A stretch of DNA of 64,000 nucleotides from Tribonema minus. Its lineage: Eukaryota; Sar; Xanthophyceae; Tribonematales; Tribonemataceae. The notes beneath the pieces are model-generated. The model was given only the letters and a program-made list of their open reading frames with translations. It was not told the origin of the DNA and made no database searches. Of the stretch, positions 47-36,157 are shown one piece after another (positions within the stretch are counted from its first letter, which is position 1; each line of letters begins with the position of its first letter). Made by a program: the position numbers and the translations under genes. The stretch is from assembly GCA_017506865.1 (NCBI GenBank), contig JAFCMP010000514.1:930001-994000 (forward strand). The letters are read 5' to 3'.

Positions 47-2019
47 CGGGCCTGCTCAAAGTCGTCATCCCCCGTGTACGCCTCGAACTCGCTCACGTCG
101 ATAAAGTTGTTGACGCGGCCCTCGATATCCGCGACCGTAGGCTGATCGGGCGCGAACCGCCACTCGTCGTCCACTATGAACTTGAAGGCGTGCTTGCCGC
201 GCTTGAGGTCGTGTATGTAGGTGAAGTCGTTGCCGCTGCGGTGCATCGGTATCTGCTTCTCCCAGTTGTTGAAGGTGCCGGTGATGTACACCTGGCGCCC
301 GCCGTGCTCCCACCTGCGGCACAGTCGTAGCGTGCCAGTGAGATGAGGGATTGGAGCCTTATGGATGCTGGCATCATATTCCAGCCCCGGTCAAAGTGAT
401 GAATCGCGTGCATGGGAAGATCAATGCGTAGTGAGCATTGATACCACCTGTGGCGCAGTCGTAGCGCAGCGACGAAATGAGGAATTGGAGCCATGTGGAC
501 GTTGAGGTCATGTTGCCCCGGTTGAAGTGATGAATTACGCGCATGTAAAATTATATGCGTAGTGAGCATTGATACCACCTGCGGCGCAGTCGCAATGCGA
601 CGGGGGGTGAGGCAGCATCGCTGTGTGGATGGTGGGATCATGTTGCAGCCCCGGTTGAAGTGATGAATCACGTGAAGTTGTTGTCGTTGCGGTGCATTGG
701 ACCTTGTTATATATGCATGATGAGCACTGATCCCACCTGCGGCGCGGTCTTAGCGCAACAGAGGGGAGGCAGTGTAGCCATTCTTGGGGCTCTAGTACAT
801 CAGGCTGACGCAGTACTGCTTGAGGCTCAGCCACTGCCGTGTACACATGGCAAACTGCGTCTCCCGAGCAACCGATGATGGCAACCTGCGCTCATCCCAA
901 CCCTAATCCTCATGCTGCACCACCCTCCTGACCCTAGGCAGGCACGACAATGGGGGGCAGCAGCAACCTGCTCACCGTGCTGCAAAAAAAAATGGAACGG
1001 CCATCACTTCATACCAACTCAGCAAACTGTGACACAATGCGCAAACAGCACGGCCATGGCGGGTGTGGTACAGCGATGCGCGACCAAGCATCGGCCCACG
1101 CGCAGGCGAGCTGCAAGGATGCCGCTCACTGCGAGAGGCGCACATTCGCATGAGGTGTTGACGCGCTGCACACCATGCACGCGCGCTAGCGGGACGCTAG
1201 CCATCCACGACTGCCCGCCGTCATTACGTTAATCATCATCATCATCATCAGGTCTAGGCGATTGCGCTACGGTGCCCGGTGGCTCGCTGTAGGGCGCCTG
1301 CACACAATGTGAACGGTCGGGCGCCATCCTCTGTAACTGTTACCGTAACCCTAACTCTGATTCTGAACCTAACTCTAAGGAGCACTTCAACAGCAGTGGG
1401 GGATTGAGAGCGCCATCGCACGTGTGCTTGTGGCCCCTACGCCGCTCGCATCCGCGCGCCTGACCCTGACCTGAGCACGAACCCTAACCCTAGCCCGCAC
1501 CCTAAGTTCACGAAGCCTCAACGCTCAGCAACGCACCCAATCACAATGTGGTGACACGTTGTCCTCCTCCTCCTCTCCTCCCCCCTCCACTTCTACCTGA
1601 TCTCAATTTACAGCAACTTCATATGCCACAATGCTCAGCAGTCGCACCTAAACACGGTCGGCACCACGTTGTCCTCCTCCTCCTGGTGCTACCCCTCCAC
1701 GTCCACCTCTTTGTACCCTAACCCTACCAACCCTAACCCCTACCCCTAGCCCTGAATGCCACAACGCTCAGCAGCAGCACCTGAACACTGTCGGCACCAC
1801 ATTGTCCTCCTCCTCCTGCTGCCCCCCCTCCACATCCATCTCCCCCGCGGAATCTAGCCGATCCAGACCGACGCTGTCCAGTTTGTAATCATCGTCAAGC
1901 GGCGTGGCAAACGAATCGGAGAACCCGCCCGGGGCGCCGGGCGCAGTCCTGGTTCCCGAGTATGTTCCCAGGCCATCGCCGCGCAGGTCCCCCCCTTCCT
2001 TGCCGGACCCGTTCCCCAT
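47..2019 (-). CDS. AMPK/SnRK1 beta subunit, 5' part (myristoylation motif and CBM48 exons)
   Basis: Regulatory and scaffold subunit of the SNF1/AMPK/SnRK1 energy-sensing kinase. Two coding exons are visible: exon 1 at 2019-1781 and exon 2 at 313-47. Exon 1 starts MGNGSGKEGG, a plausible N-myristoylation signal as in other AMPK beta subunits, then an acidic stretch (EEEDN) and VPTVF. The donor after TTCAG (intron from 1780) joins the acceptor CCGCAG at 314, giving FRWEHGGRQVYITGTFNNW, the classic start of the CBM48 glycogen-binding module. The module continues through KFIVDDEWRFAPDQPT and NNFIDVSEFEAY. Exon 2 ends at 47 before GTGAGC, so the C-terminal ASC domain lies off the left edge. Phases agree (79 codons +2 nt, then 1 nt). 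The 1.47-kb intron contains tandem copies of both neighbouring exon ends. The family call is firm; the gene is incomplete here. Confidence 0.88.
310..760. repeat. tandem decayed copies of the exon 2 acceptor in the AMPK beta intron
   Basis: Units of about 130-160 bp begin near 310, 438, 569 and 731. Each opens with a variant of CCACCTGCGGCGCAGTCG, the reverse complement of the real acceptor CGCAG followed by GTGG of exon 2. Each also shares an interior stretch that ends GTAGTGAGCATTGATACCAC. The segment 672-700 is a diverged copy of coding sequence inside exon 2 (222-250). I read these as tandem duplications of the exon-intron junction, not as extra exons, because their reading frames are broken. 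Confidence 0.8.
1340..1755. repeat. interspersed CCCTAA telomere-like words
   Basis: Short runs of CCCTAA/CCCTAACCCTA occur at about 1340-1372, 1478-1500 and 1713-1755 within the AMPK beta intron. They are imperfect and short, so they are interstitial repeats and not a chromosome end. Confidence 0.6.
1516..1800. repeat. tandem copies of the exon 1 donor end in the AMPK beta intron
   Basis: The real exon end (1781-1830, acidic EEEDNVVPTVF and donor) is repeated with decay at about 1648-1709 and 1541-1604. Each copy is followed by a shared GCTCAGCA-containing intronic flank (1759-1780, 1626-1647, 1516-1540). The period is about 110-135 bp. The copies lie inside the intron, on the downstream side of the true donor in the minus gene. 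Confidence 0.8.
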
Positions 2020-2898: not shown

Positions 2899-4172
2899 AT
2901 GCCGCCACTGCCCAGCAAGCCGACGCGTGTGGCGAAGGCTGGAGAGGGACCTCTGTACATCGCCAGGCTCACAGCGGATGGCAAATATCTACTCACAGGT
3001 CAGTGCAGAAAGGGGATGTGGATGCGATCTGAGGCAGGATTGGTCATGAGGCAAGGAGCAAGGCCGCAGACTGACGAGCTCTCGAAGCACACACTTGCTT
3101 CCTTTGCACCCTCACGTGATGTTGCAGTTTATGCACAAGAAGCGTGTTGAGATTTTTTGTTGTCCTTCACGATTTTTTTTGTCCTTCACCGCATCCCACG
3201 TGCTCAAAGCCAAGTGAGCGGAGGGGTGGGGTGCAACAGGAAGCCAACTGGCATGCTCTCGGCTGCAAGAAAGCATTCAGAGAACGCGCCACCATGACAT
3301 GTGCATTCTGCCTTCCGAGTCTGCCCCTGCTGTCACCATAAATTCTGCTGCAGGAAGCAGCACAAACGCAGCACTATTCATACATGCAGATTTGCAGCCC
3401 CCAACCCACACGCACAAGCTCTACCGCAGCGCCGCCGCAAATTATCACAACCCTCACTCACCCCCCACCACATACATACTCTCGCGCACAGGCGGCCAGG
3501 ACCGCACGGTCCGCCTCTGGAACCCCCACAAGCCAGACCCCGCAGCTGCCCCCCCCCCCCCTACCACTGCCGCCAGCGCCACCAGCGATGAGCCCCTGGA
3601 GGCAGCGCTCATGATCAAGGCCTACGGCGGCGGGCACGGTCACGAGATTTGCGACTTGGCGGTGGCGGCGGACAACTCCAAGGTGGCGAGCTGCGGCGGG
3701 GATAGGGCGGCGGTGGTGTGGGACGTCGCCACGGGCGCGCTGCGCAAGCTGCCGGCGCACGACGCCGCGGTGAACGCGTGCGCCGCGACGGCGGACTTTG
3801 CGGTGCTGCTGACGGGGTCGTACGACAGGACGGTGCGCGCGTGGGACCTGCGCGCGCACGGGCGCGCGCCTGTTCAGGTATGTAGGTATGCACTCGTGGC
3901 CAATGACTGCAGCAGCGGCGACCACTGTCATTGGTGGAAGGCACTTGCGACTTACCACTCCTTGTCACCCAGAGCTCTACGTTCTTTTGAATTACTTCTA
4001 TGTTGGTATGCACTGTCTGGTAAACAAGAGTGCACTGTTAATGTTTCTGCAATGCTGGTGTCGGCATGCGCATGTAGGTATGCACTGTCTTGTAGACAAG
4101 AGGGCACTATTCTAAAAAGGGTTTCTGTTTCTGTAGTGGCGGTCGCGGCATGCACGGCACTTGGGTCTGTAC

Positions 4173-4226
<54 letters not shown>

Positions 4227-5351
4227 ACCTAAGAGTCTTCTGCGTGTGGTGGCGGTGGCGGCACGTATGGCACTCGATGCTGATCGCACCAAGCATGCAG
4301 GAGTTTTCTGTATGTAGCGGCGGTGTCACCATGCACGGCGCGTAGTGCCAATCGCCCTAAAAATGTAGACATTTGATAGGCCTCTGTATACAGAGGCGGT
4401 GGCGGCATGCAAGGCACTCGGTGCACAGCGCTCGGGGCACGAGCGGCAGCAGCAGCACACAACCATACGCCGCGCCGAGCGCCGAGCGCTGATGCGCTCG
4501 CGCGCCACATGCGGCGTTACAATCAGGGACGGCAGCAGCGCGCAGTCGGACGCCCCCCCCTCAGCCGCTGCCACCGTCGCGCTCTGCCTGTGATGGAGCC
4601 TCGCGGCCGAGCCACGTCGCACAAGCGGCGGCAGCAGCGCACAATCTTACGCCGCGCCATGCAAATCGGACACTTCCCTCACCCGCTCCCACGGCAGCAG
4701 CGCGCAATCAGACGCTTCCCTCAGCCCCTGTCGCCCCCCCCCCCCCCCCCTGCACGCGCGCAGGTCCTGGAGGGCGCGCACGACAGCATCATCGCACGCT
4801 GAGCGCTGATGCCCCCGCCCCCCCCCCCCCCCCCCCATGCGCAGGTCCTGGAGGGCGCGCGCGACAGCATCACGTCGCTGCTCGTCCTGCCCTGCGGCGC
4901 GATCGTCGCAGGCAGCGTCGACGGCCGCGTGCGCACGTACGACGCGCGCGCCGCCGCGCTCATAGAGGACGACTGCCGCGAGCCCGTCACGTGCGTTGCA
5001 GCGTCGCACGACGGCAAGTGCGTGCTCGCCTCGTGCCTTGGCAGCGCGACGCTGCGGCTGCTGGAGCGCGGCGGCGGCGGCAGCGGCGGCGGCGGCGGCA
5101 GCGCGCAGCTGGCGGCGTACCGCGGCCACGCGCACGCGCGCTACCCGCTGCGTACGGCCTTCAGCGCCGACGACTCGCACGTGCTGAGCTGCAGCGAGGA
5201 CGGTGACGTCGTGGCGTGGGACCTGGTGACGGGGGCGGTGGCGGCGCGGCTGCGGCGGCACGCGCGGCCTACGAGCGCAATCGCGGCGCACCCGGGGGGG
5301 CGTATGCTGGTCAGCGCGTCGTACGACGGCACCGCTGTCGTGTGGACATGA
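2899..5351 (+). CDS. WDR83: WD40-repeat protein, WDR83/MORG1-like
   Basis: Three exons, 2899-2998, 3492-3877 and 4845-5351, join in phase to give about 330 residues. WDR83 orthologues have about 315. The product is a seven-bladed beta-propeller scaffold; in animals WDR83/MORG1 acts in MAP-kinase scaffolding and is found with spliceosomes. Visible WD signatures include LLTGGQDRTVRLWNP, VASCGGDRAAVVWDV, LLTGSYDRTVRAWDLR, IVAGSVDGRVRTYD, VLSCSEDGDVVAWDL and a final LVSASYDGTAVVWT. The segment VLEGAHDSI..., the DGRVR blade and SCSEDG follow the WDR83 order, which favours that orthologue over other WD40 families. A glycine/serine-rich insert lies in a loop near residue 230. Intron 2 holds a (GT)25 run, a dispersed repeat copy and a duplicated acceptor. 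A TGTAA word follows the stop at 5438. Confidence 0.85.
3892..3996 (+). repeat. dispersed ~110-bp intronic repeat, copy 1
   Basis: Begins 14 nt after the WDR83 intron 2 donor. It shares the order GGCCAATGACTGCAG, ATTGGTGGAAGGCACTTGCG, CTTGTCACC and AGAGCTCTACG with copies at 20,297, 20,719, 20,891, 29,409, 30,003 and 31,957. I see no terminal inverted repeats and no coding capacity. It could be a non-autonomous mobile element or an introner-like sequence. Confidence 0.65.
4175..4224. repeat. (GT)25 microsatellite
   Basis: Uninterrupted GT dinucleotide run inside WDR83 intron 2. Confidence 0.95.
4735..4870 (+). repeat. duplicated poly-C tract, acceptor and exon 3 start of WDR83
   Basis: A poly-C tract followed by GCGCAG and GTCCTGGAGGGCGCGC occurs twice. 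The first copy (poly-C about 4734-4750, acceptor about 4763) runs into a stop within a few codons. The second (poly-C 4815-4836, acceptor at 4844) opens the real exon 3. The upstream copy is therefore a decoy acceptor. Confidence 0.8.
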
Positions 5352-5442: not shown

Positions 5443-8329
5443 GTGGCGGCGGCGGCAGCGGTCATGGCAGCGCGTAGTTGGAGCGGGGTGTCATGCTCGC
5501 TGGCACAATGCGCCATGGCTCCTTGACGGCTGGCAGCAGCGGTGATGCAGCCGCATTCGCAGTGTGCCGGAGGGGCTCGCCAGCCGGAGCTCAACCGGCA
5601 GCAGCAGCAGCAGTAGGAGCCACAATGGTGTGGCTCTTTCCTGCGTGCACACGCGTGCGCCAGCACAAAGTGCGCCGGCACTGCGTTTTCTTGGACACAC
5701 ACTTGCAATCGACAGCCGCGGCGCTGGGGTATCGCATGTTGCCGCAGCTGCAGCCGGGCTCGGAGGTACTGCGGGGGCATTTTGCCCTGACAGCGAACTG
5801 CCTGCACTAGTTTGTGCGCGAACTACTTCGGTCCTCGTGGCTACCCTACCTAGCACCGCAGCCAACGCCAGTGCTGCCCTCACAGGCGCACGTGCACATC
5901 ACCGCTGTGGCAGTGTTCAGCTGCCACTCGATTTCGAAGCCGCGGCAAAGGGCGGAGGCAGCAAGCGCGTGGCCGTGGCAGCAGCGGCGCCGGCGGCAGC
6001 GGCTGCGGCAGTGGTAGCGGCGACAGCAGGTCACACAACGTGCACCAAAGCAGCACAGTATGCAGCTGCTGAGGGGGCCAAAGACGCCGGCAAATTTGCT
6101 GACTTCAGCTCGAGGATGGTATGGCGATGGTGCTGCGGACGTCGGTTTTGCGCCGCAGCAGCGCTCACGTGTATGGCGGCAGCGACGGCGGCTGCCGCAA
6201 CGATCCGGGCTTGAAGCGACGGTGCTGTGCGCTCGAGCACCAGTGACACAAATCACACAATCACATGAGTTCATGTACTTGTTGTGGTCCACGCCTTTGT
6301 TATGCCTGGCATTGTGTCTCACAAAGTAGCCTTGCTCCGCTGGCATATTGGAGGGGGGGCGGGGGGGGGGGGGGGTCACTACAGTTCTCAAGTGTTGTGG
6401 CGCAGAATTGCACCTCAAAGAATATGCAAGTCACCTTGCCATTGCTTGAAAGCATGCGTTTCAAACCTTGTGATGGTGCACTGCTGGCTATGCGCAAGGC
6501 TTGACCATTCATCACAGATGCAAGCCCCCCCGTGCTTTCACATAGTTGACAACAATGCCCTGTGTCGGCAGGCCTGCACACCTTGTCTCCCAGGGGGCTT
6601 CCAGCCATATACTTCAAAGTATGCAAGTGCTTCAAGTAGAGCTTTTCTGTCCCCCCCACACAGCTTCATAGTTCAGAGTCATGGCTTGCAGCCCCTCTGA
6701 GCCGCTGGTCCTATCAGTCATTGCAGCTGTTGCGACTCTGGGTGCACGACAGTTAACGGGCGACACGCCATCAATGAACTCCAGGAAACCAGCGGCCAGC
6801 TGCGGCTGCCTGATTCAACACCGCTGGCGCTATGCTCATGGCTACAGGTAGTAGAATACTATTCAGCATTTGCAAAACAAACCTCATCGGCGTGTTGAGG
6901 TTGGACATACCCTGCATCAACGTTGCTGTTGCACTGTTACGGCCGCACATGGCAACAATGAGGGATCCAGAGTGGACACTAGACCCTCAATCAAGCGCGC
7001 GCAGTTTGACGTAGAGCACAGGCAGAGGTAGGTGCTGGCAGCCGAATGGAGAACACCGACACATCAACTTTACAAAACCACATCATGCACAAACAGAATG
7101 GGCAAACAGGGAGAGCCACCACAAGCACACCAGCCACAAATGCCGCACAGAGCTCAGGGTGCTGATGGCAGACACTCAGTCATCATCAGAAGCAGTGCAG
7201 ACAGAACAAAATGCAAAACGCAGCCGGCATGACAGGAGAGCAGCGCGTCGCATTAGTTGATCGGACGTTACTGCACAGGCAACTGAGGTCGCCGCGAGTG
7301 TAGTAGCCGCCGCGTCACAACTTCAACTTCCGCAGCAGCCGCGCCGACGCGCCAGCAGCAGCAGCACCCCCGAATCAGCATCTACTTCAGCTGCAGCGTG
7401 GCGACAACCAGGCAAACGTGACAGCAAATGTGAGCGAGGCACAGTAGCGCGTCAGCAGGCTATAGCGGTGCTGCAGACACTGCAGTGCAGAGGACCGTGG
7501 TAGGCACTGAGATGCTTGGCATTGTGTGCGATGGCAGGGGGCGACAGATGGGCAAGCCAGCACTTCTAGAGAGGATGTGTGACGGGCAGTTGTTGGAGAA
7601 ACCGCGGTCAGTGCAGTTGGAAAGGTGCAGTCGCTGTGTTCAAGCCCCGGCAGGGTGGGCATCTGCAGTACACATTGACATGTGATACTAAGCTGCGGAT
7701 CCACTGATACCTGCAGAAGGTGTCACAACCATCACCCTCAACCTGCGTATTAAATGCTACACATGTACATCCAGGGTGACCGACCACGCACATCCTGCTG
7801 CAGAAGAAGCATCCTTACTCATACGACATAGGAGGCGTGACCCTGGCCTTAACCTAGCAGTGATCTCAGCCTTGTGCACCAGGATTGGACCCAGCCCTAA
7901 GTATACCATGTGCACCTTTGAAATTCATAGCCGTAGTTGGGGGTAAACAAAACCCAAGGACTCTTGGATCATATCAACCCACACCCCCATGAGCCCGACT
8001 ACCCCTGTGACGGCAGCTACACCCTGGGGCTTGTGCTGTTGGGCCCATACACAAATGTAAGCCGCACATTCTTTTCGGAAAGAAAATAGTACGCGCGGAA
8101 ACAGGCCTTCTGCGGCTCCCAGCGCCCTCTGACGTCCTGCTTCTGAAGAAATCTGCCACATGTTCTGCACAAACTACACCGTGCCAGGAGTGCTCAGCAT
8201 GATGCGCCCCCCCACGCCATTCGGCAATCTCCTTCTGAAAACACCTGCAGCGTGTTCCGCACAATACTTCATCGTGCCAAGAGTGCTGACGGAGCAGTAG
8301 TGCCGTTTGACATCCATCACTTACAACTA

Positions 8330-8736
8330 CAACAGCTTCGACGCGCTTCGTACAACGAACACTTCAAAATGCCAAGCGCGCTGAGCCTCCTGCCCCGCGC
8401 CGTTTGACGTCCATCACCATCTACTACAGAAACTCCAACGCGCTGCGCACAACAAACTGCGTCGTGCCACATGTTGCTGAGCACTGTGATGCGCAGCTGG
8501 TTGGCGTCCACCACTTTCCACTCCAAAAACTACAGCGTGCTTCGCACAACGAACACTTTAAAACGAACTTCAAAATGCCAAGCGCGCTGAGCACTGACCT
8601 TCTTCTTGACGCGCAGCTGGTTGGTGTGGCCGCACTTCTTCTTGTGGCACTTCTTCGGATACCAAAACTTCAACGCGCGCTCCGCACAACAAGCTTCAAA
8701 ACGAACTTCAAAATGCCAAGCGCGCTGAGCACTGAC
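8330..8736. repeat. tandem copies of the eL40 exon end and donor
   Basis: The real exon end and donor (encoding [12 protein letters not shown], then GTCAGTGCTCAGCGCGC) is repeated with the same flank at about 8559-8692, with more decayed versions around 8454-8558 and 8330-8450. The period is about 130 bp. The frame stays open through the first copy, which makes an intron-retention ORF that repeats CGHTNQLR. Confidence 0.8.
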
Positions 8737-12398: not shown

Positions 12399-15300
12399 AT
12401 GCGATGGCGCGTCATGATGGTGTCGACAGCGCTGGCGGCAGGCTTGCCCTCTGTCACCGCCGCTTCTAATGCGACCACCTGCCAGCAATGCTTGCGTTCT
12501 GGCGGCAACGCCTGGTGAGATGACCCACAATTTCTTGACTCAGCTTCCGAGACAGTTCAGGCGAGGTGTCTAGCGCGCCTGCGTGAAAGAAAAAGGAACT
12601 GTAAGCAACCGTTGCCTATTATCTATCACTGGTGCGGTCGACGCGGTGCGCGTTACCACGAAAACTCCCTGCTCCGCGTTCGTGATGACTCACGAAAGAG
12701 CTGGGGCGCGCAAGACAGCCGTTTACTGTTCTGCATCTTTTGCAGTACTCACTGCCAAAGTTTGCTCCCGCATTTACACCCTGCGAACAGGCTGCCTGCG
12801 AATGCTGCCGTCCGCGCAGCAGCGCTCACTTCACTCCCCCGGCCCCGCCTCGCGCTGATCGCCCCCCGTCGCTGCGCCGCCGCCGCGCGCCACCAGGTGC
12901 GGCTTCACCCGAAGCTGCGTGATCCGGTCTGCTGTCGCCAAACTAGACTGCTGGGGCGGGCCCGCGGGCGGCGGCGCGCGCGGCGCATCCACGCTCAGCA
13001 GCAGCAGCAGCAGCGGCGGCAGCGGCGGCAGCAGCGCTCAGGACGGCAGCGGGTGGGTCGCGGGCGCGGCGACGGCGTGCGCAACAGTGTACCCGTTCGC
13101 TACGTGCGGGGGGGCAGGGGTGGGGGTGGAACAGGGGACGGCGCTGGTTCTGGCGGATCAAGTGGGCGACGTCACGCTGACGCCGACCAACAGAGGTGCG
13201 CGCGCTAAGCGGTGCTGAGCACTGCTGCTCTGATGTGGCGCTGCCAAAACCACAGTATGGGTGAGACACCAAGGGAGAGCAGCACGAGTAGCTCGTGTGG
13301 TGCTTGCAGCAGTCGGCGCTCTGTACAGCAACCCCGGCAGCGGCAGCGCTCTTCAAGCGTACTGCCCCGTTCCAGCGTGCTGATTGCTTCGCTTCGTGAT
13401 GTGCAGCTTTGCGAGCCCATGTGCGGCATGCCAGTCAACGGAGAATATGAACCGTTGACGTGCCGCATCTGTTACACGGCACAGCTGCATAGGCACTGAT
13501 GCTAAGTGTTTGAATATGGGGTTGAGCTATGTCTAGCCTCTAGTTCCGTGGCTCACATCTGTCCACAATGACAGTCACGACCGTTACATAGCCGCCCCAA
13601 CAACCAGTGTTCCGTCCTTGTGCCGTCGCCCTGAAACAGTGTACTCCGCAGGGCTGGACTGCCTGTGGCTCATCAGCCCCATGTATCCTAGTGGTACACA
13701 GCAGCAGATGCTCATGTCCTATGACATCACCAAGGTGACGGCCGCAGCGGCGGACCTGCGGCCAGGTGACACGCTTCAGCTGCTGGAGGCAGTGCTCGGA
13801 CCCATGGTGCACCTCCAGCCGGGCTCTGTGCTGATGGAGTACACCGGCGGGCAGGAGGAGAAGCTCGATACACGCTCTTTCTCGGTGAGTGCGCTTGCAT
13901 TCCCCGCATGCCATTCTGATGGTACCATTGTCCGTTAGGAGTATACTATAGGTATTGTGGTACTGCTCATGTGAGATTCGTCTGTGTATGTCAGTACGTT
14001 GTATCGTCTCCACTGGAGCTTGCATGCTTTTAAGTGTCGGCTGTCTGCGGACGCATCCGCGCTCTGATTCCACTTGCGTAGCCGTCGCTCATGCGATATG
14101 CATGTGAATCAAGGCTGATACAGACACATGCATACACACTTGATACGTACACATGCATACATGTAGTTCGTATGTATGCATGTATTTCTATAAGCACATA
14201 CTTTGATATACATGCGCAAAAGCGCGCCACTTGCGCAGCCATGTGTTCACGCACTTTTGCGCCAAGATCCGTGCGCAGCTCTGCAGTGCCGCCCGCTGCT
14301 GTCGTCCTGTTTGCATCTTGGATACCTATCCCTCACTGTACATACTACCCCTTGCCGCGTGACTCTCATCTTCACACGCTCTCGCTGCCGTGCAGGTCGA
14401 CGGTCCCTGCTTCTTGCGCTTTATATCCGTCAACTCAGGATCGCACCTCACGGCGAAGGGCTTTCACGTGTCGTTTGAGGGCCAGCAGACGCCTGGTCCG
14501 CGGACCATTCTCTTCCTGTTCCTGGGCGTGGGGTGCGGCTGCAGCGTGGCGTTCGTGTGGATGGCCACGACGCTGTCCAAGTGGCACCAGCGGCGCTACG
14601 CGCGCGACAGGCGCATTGCGGACACGGTGAGAAACGGTCATGAGCTGTTGAAGTTCGAGAAGCTCACCATGTTGACGAGTGAGAGTCAGGCGAATGATGA
14701 TGGCGAGTCATGGTGCTTTGAGGGTCACCTCAGTATCGTGCTTCCACATCAGGCGCGACTTGCTTTTTGTACATACTATACCGTGTCAAAACGTCAGCAT
14801 TCGATGCAGTGGGTTTTGAGGGTCTCATATTCATATCTGCACTTCAACTTCATCCATTTCAGGCTCGCTCCCCCTCCCCCCCCCTTCGATCATTTGTTCG
14901 TGCTGCTCTTCGTGCCACAACCTGAAGCGCACGACTGCAGCGCCTAGCTGCATCAGGGTTAGGGTTGAAGTTTGGGCGGCGCCCTTATACGCCGCCTGTA
15001 GCGCCTTGGTCACTGCAGCGTGGTGGCGTCGTGGCTAGGCGACATCAGCCTTGCGCAGCGGGGGCGCTCCGCCACTTGCTCATCCGAACTCTGTCCTAGC
15101 TAACTATGCACATGTCAGGCAGCGCCGCCGTCCTTTACGCTCCCACACAACGTCGCGCTTCTGCCGCCCTGCTCACAATCATCGCTCTGTCCATGAATCT
15201 CCAAAGAGCTCGCAAGCACACACCGTGCAAGCACTCTGCGTCACGCACTGCCGCCGCTGCGCCTGCTGCCGCTAACTCAAACTTGCCGCGCCGCGCTGCG

Positions 15301-24950: not shown

Positions 24951-27900
24951 ATGAGGAGATGCAGGCTGTTCGAAGACGAGTGGTGGCTGCGACCGGTGAA
25001 TAGGGTGCGGATTTTGAGCGGTTTCGCAATCGCCGCAGTCCTGGCGCTGAGCGTGCTGATCACGATAGTGCCACGGGGGCGAAATGCGGATCTGGAGCTG
25101 GTTCAGCCGGAGCTTGCGGAGCTGAATGCGGGCGATATCGCGTGGATGCTGACGGCCACGGGACTGGTTCTTCTGATGGTGAGTGCAGTCACATTGTCGC
25201 ACGTGTTGTACGTCGCAGTCATGTGCTGCAATGCGGTGCACGGCTCGTGCAGGCCGCCGCTTCGCCACTGCTGAAAGGGCAGGTAGCTCTGTATCTTCGG
25301 CTCATAGAAGATCAGAGCATGTCTTCGTGTGACATTTTGAAGCGCCTTCATGCTGAGCATCATGGGCAATCATGATGCGGCGTGCGCCTACAAACGCATG
25401 AGGCCTGCATATTGGATTATGTCATACATTTATGTCAGTGTGAACTTGCCTTGAGGTAGGACAAGGTGTAGTTCCGTCACCCATTGTCAACATCATCATC
25501 AACGCTTGTGGTTGCACTCTCCCGGTCTCGCAACCCCCGGCATGCACTGGCGCTCTCATTGCACTTGAGCCTGTCAGATGATCGAATGATGGCCACCCTC
25601 TGTTGCTCGCTACACGCCGCCGCTATGGCTTGCCAGCCGCCGTCCCGCATCATAGTCATCGCACCACCAAAGCATCATCGTCAGCGTCAACCATGAGAGC
25701 TTCATCAACACTTTCATAACCTCACGCCTCAGTAAACCCGTAGCGCCGCCGCGCTGCGCAAAGGCGCGTGACATCAGCAACAGTGCGCACGCAACGCGCC
25801 CACCGCCACGTTCACGCACCTCGTTGTCCATACTGCCACCGCGCTGCGCAACATCAGCAACCGCACCGCTGAGGCCGCGCCAGTTGCCGCCCCCGCAACG
25901 GCGCGCACGCAACGCGCGCCGATGAAACTGCGCGCGTATCCCCTTCCCCCCCCACCGTGCCTCGCTTGCGCCACAGACGCCAGGAGTGGCCTTCTTCTAC
26001 GGAGCGATGGTGCGGCAGACGAGCATCAACACGACGCTGCTGCAGTCCTTCGGCATCATGGCCATGGTGACGATACTGTGGGTGGTGGTGGGCTTCAGCC
26101 TCGCGTTCGGGGAGTCGGTCGGGGGCGGAGTGATTGGCAATCCGTCTACGTACTTCTTCTTCAAGGACGTCGGCGCCGCGCCTAATAAGGAGTGAGTGCT
26201 GGCGAGTGCGTTGCATTAGGCGTCTCTGCGTAGGGCGTAGCGGCTCGGGCCGGCATGCTCTGAAGGCGGCCATTGCATTGGCAGGGGGAAAAGTGGCAAA
26301 GTGTTCCGACTCGCCATGTGCGGAGCGGAGCAGTGTGTGCAGTCGTGTATGCTTTGAAGGCGGCTATTGCACTGGCAGGGGAGAAGTGGCGCACGATGAT
26401 TTAGTCCGCCACGTGCGGAGCGGATGAGTGGGTGCATCTGTTGAACAAGGGGGAGGGGGGGGTACAAGACCCCTAACAAAATACATTGCTCTCCATCAAG
26501 TGTACGATTGCGCGTGAAGTGCATGCGACGGTGGCCCTGAAGCCTGGTACGCCGTGCCCGTCACATCCACATGCAGAGGGGAGGGGGGTAAAAGGTGCTA
26601 TCAAGAGTGCAGAGCAAGTGCCATGCAGAAGTTTGTGGCTTGCAATCTGTGGCAGTTCTTGATTTCATGAGTTCGGCAGACACCCAGCGTATCTGGCCGG
26701 TCAGCACGGATACGCTCATGATGTGGCATGTGCATGTGAAGTAAGCATTTGACGTACGCAATGTGGCGACGCCGGACGATGGCTGCACCACTGCCCTTTT
26801 ACCATATCTGTATCATTTGCCCCGTTCTTGTGCAGGCTCACGGTCATGCTGCCGCTGACGCTTTACGCAGCAGCAGTCTCCTCATTCTAATACTTTCCGG
26901 GGCATCTACTTGCCACTTGTCGCCACAATCCTCTTATTAAGGTGCTAGTGTCATTTGCCTTGCGCAGCGCCGTGCCCACGCTGCCGCTGATGCTGTACAC
27001 CACACCTTGAACACGCTAACTTCCGAAGTATCAATATACCACGGATTGCCACAATCCCCAACACCCAACTCACTTCCAAAGTAACTATAAACTACGAATT
27101 GCCACAATCCCCTTGTTAACAATTCTCTATCGCCTGCCTTGTGCAGGCTCGCGCCAACGCTGCCGCTGACGCTGTACGCCATGTACGAGGCTGCGTTTGC
27201 GATCCTCACGCCAGCGCTCATCGCCGGCGCCGTGGTGGAGCGGGCTCACTTCAGCGCACGTAAGTAGGGTTTGTGCTGTAGGGTTGGTAGGGTTTGAGTT
27301 AGGGTTAGCAAATCGGCGTTGGCGATTCTCACGCCAGCGCTCATCGCTGGGGCTGTGGTGAAGCGGGCTCACTTCAGCGCATGCAAGTAGGGTTTGCGCT
27401 GGGACTAGATTTGCCTGGCAGCGCGTGGGTCAGCAGATTGGCATTTGGGGCGCGCCCATGTCAGCGCATGTAAGTAAGGGTCACGCTGGGAATAGTTTAC
27501 CTACATGCGCGCATGTAAGTAAGGTTCACGTTGGGAATAGTTTACCTACTAAGGGCTTGGGTTAGCTGGGAATAATTTGCCTACTAGGGCTTGGGTTAGG
27601 ATTGGCAATGCGGAAATTACTATTATCACGCCGGCGCCATGGTGGTGTACGCCCACTTCAGCGCACGTAAGTAGGGTTTGCGCTGGAACTGGAAAGTAAA
27701 GTGGGGTTGAGTTAGGGTTAGCGATCCTTCAGCGCTCATCGGCATCACTGAGCACTGATGCGTTGACGCTGACGCGCATTCGCACGGTATGCGTTACAAA
27801 TGGTTGGATATGATGCTCAAGTTTCAAGCGCGTATACCAACGCCAGCACTGTGCTCACGTGCTGCCCCACCACAATAACTGCTGGAAGTGATTGATATCA

Positions 27901-30900
27901 CATCTCGACTGACCATCAGTCATGCATGGCAGCAGAGGTGCTAGTTTGACATGCATATAGATGCGCAAAGAGTGAGGGTTGGCGTTTGGGTGAGGGTTAG
28001 TAATAGAACGAGTGAGTGACATTGGGATGTAGGGCCTGGTACCATCAGGGATCGTACACCTAACTTCAAGTTGCCACTACACCTGGTCGAACCCTTGTTA
28101 CAGCACTACGAACACTTCTAAATCACCCGCAAACGATAATCATATCCCTCAGAAAGTACTGCAAGCACATGGAGGCACCGCCTCCCAGTACTTTCATCTG
28201 GATTGCCGAGTCTCACTGCCCTGTCTACCGGCTGCCTTTTGTTTGGCGTGTGCTACACTCGCAGTGGTTCTGTTCTGCGGAATCTGGCACCTCCTGGTCT
28301 ACTGCCCTATCGCCCATTGCACCTGGGCTCCTGGGGGTCTCTTCAGGTAAGCGACTGCTGTTTAGAAGCACGAGTCTGGTCGAGGGCTGTAAATCGCTCT
28401 CAACCTTGCCACATTGCGCCTTGGCATGCAGAAATATCCGCAGGGGGGCATCTGCCCTCAGCTGAAGCTTGCTGTATGACAACAAAGGCATCTTGAAATG
28501 TGATTGAACACACACCCACGCAGGCGTGCCTAACCCAACCCTCTCCTATGTAGATGCAAATTTGCTGCACGCCAGATTCAGATCTTGCCAAGTCTATAAT
28601 TTCCTAGCATTGCAGGATTGCGCGCAGCATGCAGTTACAGTTTCAGGGGTACGTACACTGAGCTCAATGTTTTGGGCGGCAATGCTGTCATCGAACTTGC
28701 ACGGCACTACTTCAGCAGCTAAATGCACTCGAGCGCTTGCGTTCTAAAGCGTCATAGTACAGAGAGCTCGGCCGACCTGCAGTTCGTTGTTTTTCTGTAT
28801 TGCTTTTTTACAAGAGTGTAACAATAATATGCGATCGAGCGGTGTGGGGGGGTCTCATTGCACATGACGATGCCAGAGATTCCGCATTTGAATGGTCTAG
28901 GAAGTCCGTTGCTTCATGTGCATACTCACGAAACTTTACATGTGAATGCGCCACTGATGTCAAAAAAATATGCTGCATGCACCAGGCGCGTACTATATGA
29001 GAATCCCCTGGCACAAGAGCTCTTTACCGCCTTTAGCTCGCTTTTCAGTAGCTTGAAATTGACAGCACAGATGTCTGAACCCCTAACGCACAGTTTTGGG
29101 GGCCAACATTCCGCATCCTCCCACTTTGCGCATGAGCATGCACGTGCGTTATCTCATTTGCTCGATCTGCAACCCCTGGCCCTGCAGAAAATTTGGCCAA
29201 CTGGATTTCGCTGGCGGCACTGTCGTGCACATGTCCTCTGGCTACAGCGCCCTGGTTCTCGCCAAGCTAGTGGGAGTTCGCCTGTGAGTCATCCATTGTT
29301 GATGGGGTCTGGCTGCGAATTCTCTTTATTATTTGACGTTAACACAACATGAATCACGCTGAGGTACCCGTTGAAGTGTGTGCGCTCGAGACTGCTTCTG
29401 ACAATGCATGGTGGCGAATCAAAAGATCGTAGAGCACTAGGTGACAAGGAGCGGTTAGCCGCAAGTGCCTTCCACTATTGGCGCAGAGCCAAGAGCGAGA
29501 TGCCAACGTTGAGCTGGATGCCCAGCATGCGTGATCTCAATACTCCTGCTGACGTCACTGGGGGGTTTCTACTTCAAAATTCTCTCATACTCCCAAGTAT
29601 GTACAGTTCTTCAAGAGCGTGTTTGATCTTACGCTGTTCACTATGACCAGCAGTGAGCAGCTGCATGCCCTTTCTGCTGTTTAAAACTTCAACACAGCAA
29701 CCTCATGTGCACTGTGCCACTGCGGCCAGGCATCTTTGTGTATGCTTGAGATGTACCGTATTGGTAGTATTCAGATGCAGCAGCATAGCACCGCATGCAA
29801 TATGCTTACACATTATCTGGTGCACTAATGGTGTCCTATCCCCCCCCTTCCCCTGCCCCGCACTCCACCCTGCTCCATTGTGCCCTGACAGCATCGACGC
29901 AGACGAGAAGCCCAATGAGAAGACTGCCTACATACCCTACATGATGCTCGGCACAGCGCTCATGTGGTTTGGGTGGCAGGTACTACAAATACATAATATG
30001 TTTGGCCAATGACTGCAGCATCAGCGACCATGGTTATTGGTGGAAGGCACTTGCGGCTACTCGCCCCTTGTCACGTAGAGCTCTACGATCTTTTGATTCA
30101 TTTCCATACATACCTTGCATGCGAATGCTTACGTTGCATCTAGATATGCACCTTACATGGGTATACATACCCTACGTGATGCTTGGCGCAGCGCTCATGT
30201 GGTCTGAACGGCACATAGGTGCAGTGCACAGTGCTTAGTTACAGAAGCATACTTCCAAGTATGCTAAATGTGAAGCATGTCTGCATACTGCTCGGCACAG
30301 TGCTCATCCGGTTTGTCGGGCAGATGTCTGTCAGTGGCGAGTGTGAATAAGCACAACACTGATTACTCACTATGTATGTACTGATTTTAGTGCTGGTCGC
30401 CCGATTTCAGGCTTCGTCTGCGAGTGGCCAGATGCACACACTGTTTCCGACAGCCACGTATCATCTGGGACTTCCAAGTCGGACGCTTTACGCCCACTCT
30501 CACCAGCAGCGCCATTGCGAGCTCAGAGCGTTGCACGACATCTTGAACAGAGGGCTATCCGCTCTGATAACAGGCTCGAATTCAGTACTCCCTCACAGTG
30601 TGCTGCTGCCTCGATTTGAGCGCTGACGCAGGGCCATTCCTTCACATCCTTACGATCTAAGACTTGCATCCGCTTGCAGCCACGCGCCACCAAACGGGCG
30701 CCTTCATTCTGAATAAATGCATGCCTCAACCTGAGCGCTGCTGCAGGGCTTCAACGGCCATTTCTTTAAAATCGTGCAGTCTGCGGCTTGCGCCCATGAG
30801 CCACCAGACGGTCGCCTTCATTCTAATTAAATGAAAACGAACCAAGATATCGTAGAACTTGAATGTTTTTCTCGTTCTGAGCGCTGCTGCAGGGTTTCAA

Positions 30901-33900
30901 TGGTGGCAGCGCTCTGCACGCCAACGCCCTCGCCATCATTTAACTTCCACTACATGTATGCCTGTCATTTCATGTCCACCAAATGTCATTTCCACTAAAT
31001 GTGTGCCTCAACGCCCTCGCCATCCTTTCATTGCACTAAATGTAAGCCTGTCATTTCATTTCCTTAATGTTTTTCTCAACCTGAGCGCTGCTGCAGGGCT
31101 TCAACGGCAGCAGCGCTCTTCACGCCAACGCCCTCGCCGTCATTTTCATGATTGATGTATAAGTGTATGCCTCAACCTGAGCGCTGCTGCAGGGCTTCAA
31201 CGGCCATTTCTTTAACAACGTGCAACCTGCGGCTTGCCCCGGCTTGCGCCCATGAGCACCAGACGCTCGCTTTCATTCTTATTAAATGACAATGAACCAA
31301 TATATCGTAGAACTCAAATGTTTTTCTCGTTCTGAGCGCTGCTGCAGGGATTCAATGGCGGCAGCGCTCTGCACGCCAACGCTCTCGCGTGCCAGGCCAT
31401 CCTCAACACCAACGCGTCCGCGGCGACGTGCATGGCGGTGTGGGCGCTGCTGGACAACGCGCGGGTGAGTCACTGCCCCTCAGCTAATTGAAGTTCAATT
31501 TGAAGTCAGTCTGAGAGCTTGCCGCATTTTAAGCTCCTCAGCTAACTCTAGGTCAATTTGAAACAAACCTGAGAGCTTCCTCCATCTAGAATGCGCCGGT
31601 TGCATCACGGCTTCTAACATGACGTAACCCCACTCAATCAAACCCCTTCCTTGAAGCTTGCCGCATCTGGCCCTGGTCGTATTCAGGCCGTAGCCTTAAC
31701 CCTTGCGCCACACCTACAGCGGCTAGCCTTGGACAATGCACGGGTGCGTTCACGGCCTTTGCTGCAACCCTAGTACATCTGGCCCTAGCCCCAATCCCTG
31801 CGGCGATTGGCGCTGAGTAGACCTTGCTCGCGCTCCGCCTGCCAGATTTGCATAGACTTGTTTGATGGCAGGGCTCGAGACAGGCTGGGGCGAGTAGCAC
31901 ATTGACATCCCTGCAGACACCCCTCGTTCCGCTACTCAGTTGCAGCGGGCCTTATATAATGGAAACGAATCAAAAGATCGTAGAGCTCTAGGTGACAAAG
32001 GATGGTTAGCCGCAAGTGCCTTCCACCAATACCCGTGGTCGCCGCTGTTGCAGTCATTGGCCACGAGTCAAAGAGTGCCATCATATCCACAGGTCAAAAG
32101 ACTTCTGTGTGCGAGCTTTGTAGCGTTTAAGGGCATAATGTTAGCCTGCGGTGCACAGCCATGTGTGAGGTTTACGCTGCGATGGGCAAGGTGTCGTTTG
32201 AGATTTGCAGCAGCTGTGCCTGGGGGAAGAGTACGACTCGCGACTCCCACTGAGTCAGGTCAGACTCTTGGGCCATCGCGCCACGGCGCATGACGTCGGA
32301 TGCTGCTGCCGCCTGGTTATCAGCATGTACTTCACCTGCTTTGCATACTTCAAATGGCTCGACGTGTGTGCAACGCCAGCAGAAAGCGCCGCCACATTGC
32401 GCTCAGTAGTGCCGCACGGCGGCGCTGTTGCAATCTTCAGGCGTCAAGTGCTCACAACACTGCGGCAAACCGCTGTCGCTGCGACCCTTCATGCACGGTA
32501 TATGGGTCTGCACACATACATACATACCATCATCGCACGCTGCCGCTGCATACCACCACAAACTTGCCGCTGATGGCCACCACGCTCTAACCCTAACCCT
32601 AGTTCGCCCTGCCCCACCAAGTAAGTCGCTGTTCCGCGGCGCTGTTCCCTGCAGACATGACTGCAGCAGCACTACCCCTAAATTACTCTTACATGCCCAG
32701 AGCCGTCAAGCCTATTGTGGTGACTCACACATTGCGACTGTTGAACTTTGGTGTGCCGGGCCGGCAAGGCACCGGCGAGTTGTCCAATCCTATCCTGGCG
32801 ACTCTTGACCGTAACGCCTGTTGAACTTAACCGAACTCCCTGCAGGGGCGGCAAGTCACCGGCGTCAGCATGTGCGGCAGCATCGTGTGCGGCCTCGTCG
32901 CCGTCAGTCCTATTCTGGTGACGCTCAAACATTTTTTTGCGACTGCTGAACTTGAACTTTACCAAACTTCCTGCAGGGGCGGCAAGTCACCGGCGTCAGT
33001 GTGTGCGGCGGCATCGTGTGCGGTCTCGTCGCAGTAACGCCCGCTGCGGGCTACGTAACTGTGGGCGCCGCCATGGTTATTGGTGCCGTGAGCGCCATCG
33101 TCTGCAACACGTTCATCCGCGCATTCAGGAATCAGCGGATGGTGGACGACACGGTCGACGTCTTTGGCTGCCACGGTGCGTTTCTTTGTAACCGAGGGTT
33201 GCGAGTTCATTCGCGCCTTCAGAAACCAGCGGGTAGCAGACGACACGATGGTTGTCTTCGGCTGCCACGCTGCACTTGCGGTTGCCACTAGTTACAGCAC
33301 TGCTTTGGAGCATGTGAAGTATTCCCTAATGACCATTGCATGAGCCGGCGCCGGCGCGTGCTGGAGGTTATGGACGATGTCTTTGGCTGCCACGATGTTT
33401 GTGCTCGTGTGATCGCCTCTGATGCTTTAAAGTATTTAACAACGTGCTTTGAAGTATTTAACAACGAAGGTACACCGGCTGTGGATACATCAGCACGCTT
33501 TCAAGCAGACCGCATACATTCACATAGCTGAAGCGTCATTCAAAGAACAGAGTGGCACACTTCAAGTGTGCGCATGTAAAAATAGTCTACAGAGTTATCA
33601 CAGCCATGTGATCCAACGTGATCTGTTGTGGCCTTTTACCTTGTGGTATATTTTTCATAGACAAAGGCAACACATCTTGCCAGCATGTGAAGGCCTCTAT
33701 CCACATCACCGCCAGTCTTATATGTAAGCATCAACACGTCATTAATCCTTTGTTTGCTACTTCATGTGCGCGACCACCATCTAGCCACCCTCGCTGTACA
33801 AGCAAGCAAGCGACATGTCTACTAACCCAGCCAACGCCTGGCCGTGTCCGCCCCTTGCAGGCGTTGCCGGCACATGCGGCATGGTACTGACGTCCATGTT

Positions 33901-36157
33901 CGCCACCGACGACGTCAACCCCGACGACGAGTTTAACGGCCTGTTCTACGGGGAGACGACGCTGTTCTGGCGCACGCTGTCGGTGGCGGCGGGCGTGATC
34001 GTCTACGTCACCGCCATGACGTACTTGACGTATGCGCTCGTTAGCGCCGTGATACCGTTCAGAGGTGAGACGCGCCGCGCTTCGCCGCCTGTTGCTTTGC
34101 GTCTGAACGCGACCTCTGAGAGAGGACGAGACAGGTTTATGATGAAGGTGATGTGCTCGTGGCGAACCCAATCAGGATGCAACGCACCTCTGCTGTGTGC
34201 ACGTCACCACCTGTCAGTGCCACAAAATGTTTTGTTCGCCGGCACAAAACGCTTGGAAATAGAAGTACTTGGGTGCTCGTGCCATGTCGCACTTTTGAGT
34301 ACCCAGGACCCCCTATAAAGCGACAACCTGTTTAACAACAGTGAATGCTTTGGAGTAGAAGTGCGTGGGCGCTCGTGCTGTATCATAACGCACTCTTCAG
34401 GCACGCTCTAGTGCCCACCAACGCATCAGGACCCGCCTGATTGGGGGTGCCTCGCGGCGCGCGGTGGAGACAGTGCTCAGGAGACAGTGCTCGTGAGCGA
34501 TCCCAATCGTCAACATGATGCAGCCGTCCCTCGCAATGTTCGATCCCACCCTTCCCTTCGCAGTCGGCAATGCAATTGAAGTGGATGTACTTCAAGTAGC
34601 AGTACTTGGGCACACATACTGTACAAAAAAGCTCTCTGCAAGCACGCTTTTAGTACCCTCCACTGCACCAGGACCCCAAACCAGGGGGTGTGGGGCCCCC
34701 CGTGGTAAACGGTGGCGACGGTGATCAGGAGTGTTTGCACTATTCAATGTTATGCAGTCATCTTTCACGGTATCTGCTCCAACTTCATCTGCTTCAACTT
34801 CATCCGCAGTTGGCAACCCAACGTTTGCCAGAAGTGACAATCGAATGGTTTGTGCCGTCATTCATCACCACAGCTATGCAGAAATTGGCGCCGAGCATGT
34901 GGCATCAACTTCAAGTTCTCCAGTGCACTTGAAGTTCAATGCCTACCACTACGTGCCGTGTGTTGCAGTGACGCTCAAGCAAGAGCGGGCGGGACTAGAC
35001 GCCTCCCTGCACGGATCCCTGCACGGACTCTCAGACATCATCAAGAACCTGGACGAACTGTGGAAAGATGGGTGAGCGGAGAAGTTGAACTAGGAACTTT
35101 TTCACTGCTCTACTACGGATTGCACAACGATTGAGAGCTTTTGCCAAAACCAAAACACAAAAAACGGTGAAAAACACGTCAATAGCCTCCCTGCACGGAC
35201 TGTCCGACATCATCAAGAACCTGGACTGTGGAAAGATGGGTGAGCGGATGAAGTTGAACTTGAACTTTTTCACCGTTCTACTGCGGATTGCACAAAGATT
35301 GAGAGCTTTTTCCAATGTAAAAACGCAAAAACGGTGAAAAACACAACGTGTGAGCGCATACATAAAGTTGAATGTGGAGTTATTTGCCGCTCTAGCACTT
35401 CTGCCGCTGCGCCTCTCAGGTTCACGGTGTGTGTTTGTCTTCTGGTGCTCCTCTTACTAAAAGGCAGCTTATCGCATCTTGCATCTCCTCACAACTCCCC
35501 ATAGATAACTGTATGACCGCCCAGGCGGGCAGATGCACTTAGCCTGCAGAAAAAGAAGGGGGTTGTGATGCGTTCGCCCATCGGTGCCAGACTGCGCAAC
35601 TGTGTCGATGGCCAAGCTCAAAAGTGTCAGGCATGCCGGTGAACACTACTGAGAACCGCAGTTTAGGCGTCATTGGCGTTCGTTTTAGCAGTTGCTGTGT
35701 TTGATGGCCATTGACAACTGTGTCATGGTGCATCCACTGTGGCATGGTGCTTCCACCCATCCGCAGATTCCTTGACTGACGTCACCATTGCACATCTGAG
35801 CTGGCACACACACTTGCATGCTTCAAGATGAATGCGTGCTTCAAACCGAAGAGAAGAAAACATCGCTGAGCACGCGCACAACAGTTGGTCCTTCACTACA
35901 AGCGGTACACGTCAGACGCACAACCTTCAACATGCCGCCATCACTACATGCTTTCACTGCTATCGCAGTAGCTGACGCAAGGCGCCCGCCCCTTGCCCCT
36001 GCGCAGAGTGGCCGCAAGTCTCGGCGCCATGACCCCCGTCAACCTCCGCCTGGCCGAGCCCGCAACTTCCGACGAAAAGTCCGATGGCGACTCTCCCGCT
36101 CCCGTGCACGACCTCCCCAACGCCCTCGACAGCAACAGCGCCAGGCACCTGTGCTGA
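24951..36157 (+). CDS. AMT: ammonium transporter (AMT/Mep family)
   Basis: Eleven exons join in phase to about 531 residues: 24951-25178, 25977-26191, 27147-27259, 28265-28346, 29188-29283, 29892-29979, 31348-31464, 32977-33175, 33861-34064, 34969-35071 and 36007-36157. The product is a plasma-membrane channel for ammonium. A short cytosolic N-terminus and an extra hydrophobic helix ([18 protein letters not shown]) precede the first family signature [18 protein letters not shown]. Next come [39 protein letters not shown] and [14 protein letters not shown], which holds the first pore His. Then [20 protein letters not shown] and DVFGCHGVAG (second pore His). The C-tail has the AMT-like [12 protein letters not shown], then an acidic end. 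Many introns contain decayed copies of neighbouring exon ends. The start is the first ATG in the opening exon; a further 5' non-coding exon is possible. Confidence 0.92.
26255..26425 (+). repeat. tandem ~90-bp repeat in AMT intron 2
   Basis: Two copies of a unit containing GCTCTGAAGGCGGCCATTGC or its variant and GTGCGGAGCGGA, at about 26258-26340 and 26350-26425. Confidence 0.75.
26831..27180 (+). repeat. three acceptor copies before AMT exon 3
   Basis: The acceptor plus exon start (GTGCAG, then coding PTLPLTLYA) occurs at about 26836-26870 and 26968-27000 as decayed decoys, and at 27147 as the real exon. The spacing is about 130-180 bp. Confidence 0.85.
27198..27690 (+). repeat. copies of AMT exon 3 end and donor
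   Basis: The real end (coding [19 protein letters not shown], donor GTAAGTAGGGTTTG at 27260) is followed by copies at about 27318-27395, 27425-27495, 27505-27540 (donor only) and 27602-27690. The donor and its flank (GTAAGTAGGG, GCTGGGAATAG) are best preserved; the coding part decays. Confidence 0.88.
29409..29482 (-). repeat. dispersed intronic repeat, copy 5
   Basis: Minus copy (CGAATCAAAAGATCGTAGAG, GCCGCAAGTGCCTTCCAC) in AMT intron 5. Confidence 0.6.
30003..30110 (+). repeat. dispersed intronic repeat, copy 6
   Basis: Near full-length plus copy beginning about 24 nt after the donor of AMT intron 6. Confidence 0.65.
30150..30325 (+). repeat. two decoy copies of AMT exon 6 end
   Basis: Copies of the sequence coding [13 protein letters not shown] lie at about 30165-30215 and 30280-30325, downstream of the real exon (29892-29979). 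The second has lost most of the coding frame. Confidence 0.8.
30725..31400 (+). repeat. five copies of the AMT exon 7 acceptor
   Basis: The motif GAGCGCTGCTGCAGGGCTTC (or a close variant) with following coding sequence for [14 protein letters not shown] occurs at about 30733, 30878, 31080, 31171 and 31332. Only the last (exon from 31348) stays open into a full exon. Two copies (30733 and 31171) share a different tail (GGCCATTTCTTTAA) and flank, so the units were duplicated in compound blocks. Confidence 0.9.
31722..31750 (+). repeat. decayed copy of AMT exon 7 end and donor
   Basis: CTTGGACAATGCACGGGTGC matches the real exon end and donor CTGGACAACGCGCGGGTGAG at 31450-31469. Confidence 0.6.
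31957..32068 (-). repeat. dispersed intronic repeat, copy 7
   Basis: Near full-length minus copy in AMT intron 7, from AATGGAAACGAATCAAAAG to CATTGGCCACGAGT. Confidence 0.65.
32699..33040 (+). repeat. three copies of the AMT exon 8 acceptor region
   Basis: A unit of about 130 bp (exon start coding GRQVTGVS, then CCTATTCTGGTGACGCTCAA, GACTGCTGAACTTGAACTTT, CTGCAG) is present at about 32,750 (very decayed), 32,846 (well preserved) and 32,977 (the real exon). Confidence 0.85.
33125..33402 (+). repeat. copies of AMT exon 8 end
   Basis: The real end coding [17 protein letters not shown] (donor at 33176) is followed by copies at about 33208-33272 and 33345-33402 in the intron. The latter keeps GATGTCTTTGGCTGCCACG. 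Confidence 0.85.
34230..34740 (+). repeat. triplicated block in AMT intron 9
   Basis: Three diverged units share AAGTACTTGGGTGCTCGTG-like, CACGCTCTAGTGCCCACCA-like and GGGGGTGCCTCGCGGCGCGC-like segments, starting at about 34260, 34355 and 34590. They contain no exon sequence I can recognise. Confidence 0.6.
35010..35345 (+). repeat. tandem duplicate of AMT exon 10 end and donor
   Basis: The segment coding [18 protein letters not shown] with donor GGTGAGCGG and a ~100-bp flank (GAAGTTGAACT, GGATTGCACAACGATTGAGA) is repeated at about 35182-35345 with a small internal deletion. Confidence 0.88.

Follow-up and report, generated by a model that had tools for sequence, protein, structure and literature searches.

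Our analysis of introns in the yellow-green alga Tribonema minus, a stramenopile, revealed that about a third of those modelled (19/59) contain direct tandem copies of their own exon ends, holding both exon and intron sequence as in tandem duplication across an exon–intron boundary. The copies decay neutrally, duplication in this sample is biased towards introns, and one array predates a gene duplication. We consider it probable that the pattern as a whole is explained by local tandem duplication within introns, filtered by selection on exons. The DNA at the centre of the analysis is a stretch of 64,000 nucleotides of the nuclear genome (hereafter the window; positions 930001-994000 of contig 511, in an assembly of 158 Mb), to which we added CCT genes from elsewhere in the genome.

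Junction copies in window and CCT genes

The first 36 kb of the window hold an AMPK-beta-like gene (minus strand), a WD40 gene, a ubiquitin-L40 fusion gene (minus strand), two tandem RING-H2 paralogs and an ammonium transporter, and past 37 kb lie a DNA methylase-domain gene and LTR retroelements. In the latter part, a C-5 cytosine methylase domain is encoded by a 1502-aa open frame at 38858-43366, the segment 42285-43363 recurs inverted at 62925-64000 (99%), and open frames of 3455 and 1932 aa, at 46691-57058 and 58197-63995, carry the reverse transcriptase, RNase H and integrase domains of LTR-type retroelements. The names AMPK-beta, ubiquitin-L40 and RING come from translations read by eye, with no family hit behind them.

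Models of the AMPK-beta-like, WD40 and ubiquitin-L40 genes were built by hand, as were the RING models, from paralog similarity, because a protein search with RING-H2 gene 2 as query returned no match at E 0.001. The ammonium transporter, a 99% match to a T. minus protein in a protein search, was modelled with a spliced protein-to-DNA aligner written for this analysis, the annotated T. minus protein P0121 serving as reference. A distant reference, P0123, reproduced seven of the nine introns of the P0121 model and the donor of the eighth; the two models disagree on the remainder of the eighth intron and on the ninth, and P0123 adds two further introns. The four transporter introns counted below as carrying a junction copy are all among the seven common to both models. 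A CCT query, whose first row is from contig 235, likewise matched a T. minus protein, at 97%. For CCT eta, the reference P0001 and P0003, from another alga, gave identical exons, and CCT alpha, beta, gamma, delta, theta and a piece of epsilon were modelled from solved CCT chains. Nine model introns (gamma, 3; beta, 1; delta, 4; theta, 1) were excluded for a missing reference segment or an aligner artefact; the CCT/cpn60 loci at C511:165100, C516 and C544 lie outside the sample, which takes in epsilon in part only. The modelled introns number 59, with 22 in the window and 37 in CCT genes. All 59 entered the junction-copy count, the Tandem Repeats Finder coverage and the junction-versus-interior and repeat-share analyses; 58, without the AMPK-beta intron, entered the cross-gene control and the analyses of copy identity, codon position, coverage, geometry and end register. 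The score threshold was 40 for the cross-gene control, the exon-interior count and the analysis of copy identity and splice dinucleotides, 44 for unit geometry, the junction-copy count and the junction-versus-interior analysis, and 50 for codon positions.

For each junction, a copy of a 120-base window centred on the donor or acceptor was sought inside its own intron. Donor copies were found in 11/59 introns, acceptor copies in 11/59 and either in 19/59, divided between 9 of the 22 window introns and 10 of the 37 in CCT genes. The same junction windows had no match in reversed introns (0/118) or in introns of other genes (0/464; 58 introns, with four random other introns each). Under the looser rule of the geometry analysis, at least one exon-end copy occurs in 23/58 introns, one of them from CCT eta. 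Self-alignment shows diverged tandem copies of exon end, splice site and intron flank within introns of five genes of the window, located on both strands: the AMPK-beta-like, WD40, ubiquitin-L40, second RING-H2 and ammonium transporter genes. The initial annotation, which saw such copies in most introns of five genes, overstated the share of introns, and its claim of genome-wide intron lengthening by tandem duplication holds as far as the CCT genes on other contigs.

Each copied junction has 1-6 copies in the window, as had been described, and up to 7 in the CCT genes; the fourth modelled intron of CCT theta, for instance, has five acceptor copies. The units are tens to hundreds of bases long and lie head to tail, in the manner of minisatellite-like intronic tandem repeats. 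By the geometry of the models the outermost copy is the junction in use, as had also been claimed, and the outer sites are kept in all 59 modelled introns; in the ammonium transporter they derive from the annotated protein P0121. Outside these introns, three copies of acceptor and exon start were seen by eye upstream of the real acceptor in CCT epsilon, and a Pfam exon map gave partial exon duplicates in three CCT genes.

In the AMPK-beta-like gene, self-alignment, Tandem Repeats Finder and a hand model with its translation place one intron at 314..1780 (minus strand; exon 1 ends at 1781 and exon 2 begins at 313). Copies of its real donor-side junction region (1756-1842) lie at 1515-1598 and 1623-1709, and acceptor-side copies occupy 310-772 with a period of ~131; the latter are ~75% identical and below the junction-count threshold, which the donor copy alone passed. 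Intron 2 of the hand-modelled WD40 gene (3878..4844, plus strand) has an acceptor copy at 4732-4791 of the real acceptor region 4816-4872. In intron 2 of the ubiquitin-L40 gene (8900..10197, minus strand; 1298 bp), 87% of interior windows lie in local repeats, with three 140 bp units starting at the donor (9835-10240) and an acceptor array (8867-9712) that has six upstream copies. In the same gene, self-alignment and Tandem Repeats Finder show copies of the 3' end of the L40 exon with the following GTCAGT at 8302..8793 (minus strand; period ~138 bp); the L40 exon downstream of these copies was not located, and the array is outside the 59 introns.

On the plus strand, RING-H2 gene 2 has a donor copy in intron 2 (18443..19126; copy 18531-18597 of 18397-18465) and two in intron 4 (20667..21608; copies 20809-20893 and 21109-21189 of 20617-20697). 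Its tandem paralog, RING-H2 gene 1 (12399..15794, plus strand), serves as a negative comparison, with junction copies in 0/4 introns. In the ammonium transporter, also on the plus strand, the intron at 26192..27146 has two acceptor copies, which precede the acceptor by 179 and 311 bp. The intron at 27260..28264 contains two donor copies (27316-27401 and about 27629-27722); that at 29980..31347 has four acceptor copies, 155, 251, 455 and 601 bp ahead of the acceptor, and an exon-tail copy at 30164-30206; and that at 31465..32976 has an acceptor copy at 32821-32904 of 32952-33035, at a step of 131 bp. A weaker donor copy in the intron at 33176..33860 (33205-33273 of 33111-33179, 80%) is not counted in the 59-intron tally, and the tandem copy at 35188-35344 (within 35016..35344), which by the P0121 model repeats the last part of the coding sequence, stop codon included, is not an intron junction.

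Self-alignment also detected a dispersed element of ~60-150 bp that looks like a MITE; introns of the WD40, RING-H2 and transporter genes contain it, in either orientation (3892-4001, 20303-20383, 20720-20794, 20897-21052, 29415-29475, 30003-30107 and 31964-32117).

Introns, intergenic DNA and the position of duplications

Are local duplications a property of introns or of the genome at large? In five intergenic stretches of the window, 9 kb in all, a partner was found for 2/562 windows, and in the retroelement region for 9/1004. Tandem Repeats Finder, run at the settings of an Ectocarpus study, gave a coverage of 8.8% for the 59 introns, taken together with 60 bp of exon, and of 0.4% for the window intergenic stretches; the retroelement region stood at 2.6%, the CCT stretches at 7.0% and eight stretches of 10 kb, picked at round coordinates, at 6.6%. 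For Ectocarpus itself, that study puts tandem repeats at 3.35% of the genome, evenly spread (PMC12477816). Automatic classes drawn from codon-usage exon finding, which are rough only, gave partners for 717/2960 windows in putative introns, 93/1083 in intergenic DNA, 283/1658 in predicted coding sequence (including windows near exon ends) and 403/5409 in unclassified sequence, and a single stretch, containing a CCT gene, supplies 61 of the 93 intergenic windows. We place more weight on the five hand-picked window stretches because the automatic classification misses exons. The initial reading presupposes that introns are more self-similar than intergenic DNA; this is so by comparison with the window stretches and less clean with the automatic class. 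An intron bias of tandem duplication in T. minus is likely, and intergenic DNA may be younger than introns.

By a measure that counts intron copies whose partner is exonic, local direct repeats account for 26% of the intron sequence sampled, and most of that lies in long introns. Repeat content rises with intron length (rho 0.65): the introns with more than 5% repeat are 1/12 of those shorter than 400 bp, 3/15 at 400-600 bp, 9/15 at 600-900 bp and 15/17 above 900 bp. Copies also cluster by gene (p=0.0045; within length classes, 0.03). CCT subunits are expected to be co-expressed, yet junction copies occur in 0/20 introns of alpha, beta and eta and in 5/6 of theta.

The initial annotation could be read as proposing that junctions are copied in a special way. 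Junctions were copied at a rate of 18.6%, against 20.7% for interior windows when pooled and 14.1% when averaged by intron; the per-intron difference of junction minus interior is 4.6 points (interval -0.3 to 9.3, p=0.09). The pooled interior figure is 465/2244 windows when the intron and 250 bp of each flanking exon are searched, and 400/2244 (11.6% averaged by intron) when the intron alone is searched. The copying rate of junctions thus equals or slightly exceeds that of the interior, and special copying of junctions is not supported. The closeness of the rates argues for a general tandem duplication inside introns that often crosses intron ends. Of exon-interior windows 100 bp or more from a junction, 4/163 were copied.

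The same data bear on the strongest competitor, which we consider unlikely, if well ahead of the other alternatives: a transcription- or splicing-coupled process that copies the surroundings of splice sites, with one breakpoint ~50 nt inside the exon. As a full account, such a process would duplicate in introns and hardly elsewhere, and would have set the length of the longer introns; at that breadth it is just as improbable. The intron bias and the weak per-intron excess of junctions (18.6 versus 14.1%) speak for it, but in the pooled comparison interior windows equal junction windows in how often they are copied. A peak of coverage at the junction also favours it: with exons included, coverage is 24-25% just inside the exon, ~15% at +45 to +90 and 19% deeper. 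With exons masked, however, the peak is absent (14% in the first 30 bp of the intron, 20% in the deep interior), so that the peak is at least partly explained by anchoring on the constrained exon.

The geometry of the units provides the remaining argument for a targeted process. The step between copies is mostly 80-200 bp and the exon part mostly 40-60 bp, with a median of 48 bp (middle half 40-59) over 59 copies, and the longest exon part per event has a median of 52 bp against 72 (54-90) expected from uniform breakpoints (KS p=0.0017). These 59 copies represent only 28 events, however, because arrays copy their own units, and selection against long exon copies would narrow the exon parts equally. 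A short exon fragment, lacking the second splice site, would not be defined as an exon, and we favour selection as the cause of the short exon parts.

Decay and age of the copies

Over 43 aligned copies, identity to the original is 91% in the exon-derived part and 85% in the intron-derived part. Among 39 copies analysed by codon position, mismatches number 41/597, 34/595 and 80/591 at the first, second and third positions (6.9, 5.7 and 13.5%; p about 2e-6), mismatch in the intron-derived sequence is 15%, codon changes comprise 68 synonymous and 67 non-synonymous ones, eight copies are frameshifted and one in-frame stop codon has arisen. When one partner is a constrained exon and the other a free copy, positions 1 and 2 should carry the changes of one lineage, and both lineages should contribute at position 3 and in the intron part; the predicted ratio of 1 to 2 matches the mismatches observed. 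The copies thus decay neutrally next to a constrained exon, and to this extent the decay described in the initial annotation is borne out. Its further claim that redundant splice sites are lost is not supported, as GT or AG is kept in 40/43 copies, with 33.4 expected from pairwise identity squared, and decoy sites are therefore not purged. By type, the dinucleotide is kept at 15/18 donors (14.2 expected) and 25/25 acceptors (19.2 expected); the excess of acceptor AG may reflect chance within arrays or weak constraint.

This pattern also argues against reading the copies as working exons, mutually exclusive or alternative, which we regard as very improbable. If both partners were working exons, changes at positions 1 and 2 would be much rarer than the roughly half of the third-position rate found, which fits a single constrained copy. 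Frameshifts occur in 8/39 copies, and the copies are mostly 40-60 bp fragments of longer exons and do not comprise full exons. The one observation in favour is that P0122, an annotated paralogous transporter (C32:44031-55130), holds two in-frame segments that by eye resemble copies of neighbouring exon ends. A BLASTP self-comparison of P0122 at E 0.1 did not report the two repeats, and P0122 may be a prediction that absorbed a decoy. The protein may contain copy-derived segments, and these may be decoys taken in by the gene predictor or copies that turned into exons.

Birth of the introns themselves, in which exonic AGGT is duplicated in tandem and the new intron then grows, is comparably improbable, although many modelled donor sites read AG|GT and the model is established elsewhere (PMC3443670, PMC4974935). 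The initial annotation had linked the copies to this route of intron gain. If the link were correct, the donor and acceptor regions of the same intron should resemble each other in register, yet over 58 introns they match at 26.3 of 80 positions, compared with 26.6 in mismatched pairs (top scores 32 and 33), and the link is not upheld. Short introns are, in addition, the least repetitive (1/12 below 400 bp), the opposite of what young two-copy introns would show.

Import of splice sites by introner-like or other mobile elements is highly improbable: the MITE-like element does occur in introns of three window genes, but junction windows matched introns of other genes in 0/464 tests, whereas introners would place related sequence with splice sites in introns of unrelated genes. 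An assembly artefact is equally so, as nothing favours it beyond the difficulty of assembling tandem repeats, and most copies differ from each other by 5-30%, carry private indels and recur as a pattern on several contigs.

How old are the duplications? Four of the 239 repeat pairs that span 50 bp or more exceed 95% identity, and the distribution peaks at 75-80%. A ubiquitin-L40 paralog on contig 5 has, in an alignment read by eye, an acceptor array with the same exon-side end point, and the array is therefore older than the gene duplication. Of the two genes, only that in the window was found to have the donor array and the L40-end copies. The ubiquitin-L40 intron at 10311-10813 is absent from the contig 5 paralog, where the flanking exon pieces are contiguous, an instance of intron gain or loss. 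Of the RING-H2 paralogs, gene 2 has donor copies in two introns and gene 1 has none. The transporter acceptor copy that precedes 32977 shares 90% identity with its original, compared with 81% for the contig 32 paralog over that exon start, so that this copy is probably younger than that gene duplication. The continuing growth claimed in the initial annotation is not supported, given the scarcity of near-identical pairs and the antiquity of one array; the process was long-running and may have slowed.

A proposed origin of the copies and its relation to known systems

Weighing these analyses together, we return to local tandem duplication filtered by selection and propose the following model. 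Introns of T. minus would gather local tandem duplications, at steps mostly of 80-200 bp, far above the level in the sampled intergenic DNA of the window. A first duplication may arise from polymerase slippage or from the repair of staggered nicks or breaks, as in the patch-mediated mechanism put forward for rice. A duplication that is wholly intronic, or that crosses one junction, would be harmless provided that the site joined to the intact exon stays in use, and duplications inside exons would be selected away. Those that cross a junction would leave a copy of the exon end and splice site in the intron, with the used site automatically outermost; this outermost site presumably wins in splicing as the only one that adjoins an exon with both splice sites. 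Two-copy duplications could then expand into arrays of up to 8 units, presumably via unequal exchange or further slippage, and the copies would drift neutrally thereafter.

Interstitial telomere-like tracts of the TTAGGG type lie at window positions 1482, 1716, 21216 and 32588 and at other sampled loci, with 35 matches in ~225 kb of sampled sequence and nine in the 58 model introns; single 10-base telomere-like words were counted up to 20 times, with ~0.1 expected. A k-mer search for a shared motif returned telomere-like and low-complexity words. These tracts may mark break repair.

Tandem duplication across intron edges is already known from single cases or genes. Internal gene duplication, including that of segments across intron ends, was reportedly studied by Gao and Lynch in 2009 as a source of new introns. 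Their system and that of T. minus have in common tandem duplication inside genes across intron ends, but in T. minus existing introns are lengthened, arrays reach up to 8 units and about a third of the sampled introns carry junction copies. In the potato RdRp gene, a duplicated segment likewise crosses an intron–exon boundary and a second tandem duplication of 83 bp lies inside the first intron; this was one event in one gene that made a new intron and exon (PMC4974935), whereas in our models of T. minus the copies stay within the old intron. The tandem genomic duplication model of Rogers has tandem copying of AGGT supply extra GT and AG sites (reviewed in PMC3443670); tandem copying does so in T. 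minus too, where no pairing of donor and acceptor ends was found.

The patch-mediated break repair described in rice by Vaughn and Bennetzen (2014) yields insertions of 10-1000 bp that are tandem or partly tandem, according to a later source (PMC7407515). There the mutational mechanism was inferred genome-wide; in T. minus the copies are mostly intronic, and the mechanism itself is only inferred. Repeated exon–intron units inside genes also occur in the LRR genes of Tetrahymena, which are arrays of 90-bp exons (PMC6564038) and multiply whole working exons, whereas T. minus multiplies exon-end fragments inside introns. Introners, mobile elements inserted into many genes (PMC9860276), similarly alter intron content across a genome; unlike them, the junction copies of T. 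minus matched only their own intron in the tests made. None of the papers listed by literature searches was seen to describe the pattern in Tribonema or at this density, and to the extent of those searches, both the density and the apparent bias towards introns look new for the lineage.

What is the relevance of these copies for the alga? Short tandem duplication looks like a main source of intron length in T. minus rather than a rarity. The arrays also amount to a natural experiment on splice-site choice, offering up to 7 extra sites, mostly with intact GT or AG, of which the outermost should be used. On the acceptor side, the used site would be the last of several good ones, a choice that exon definition would make and first-come scanning would not.
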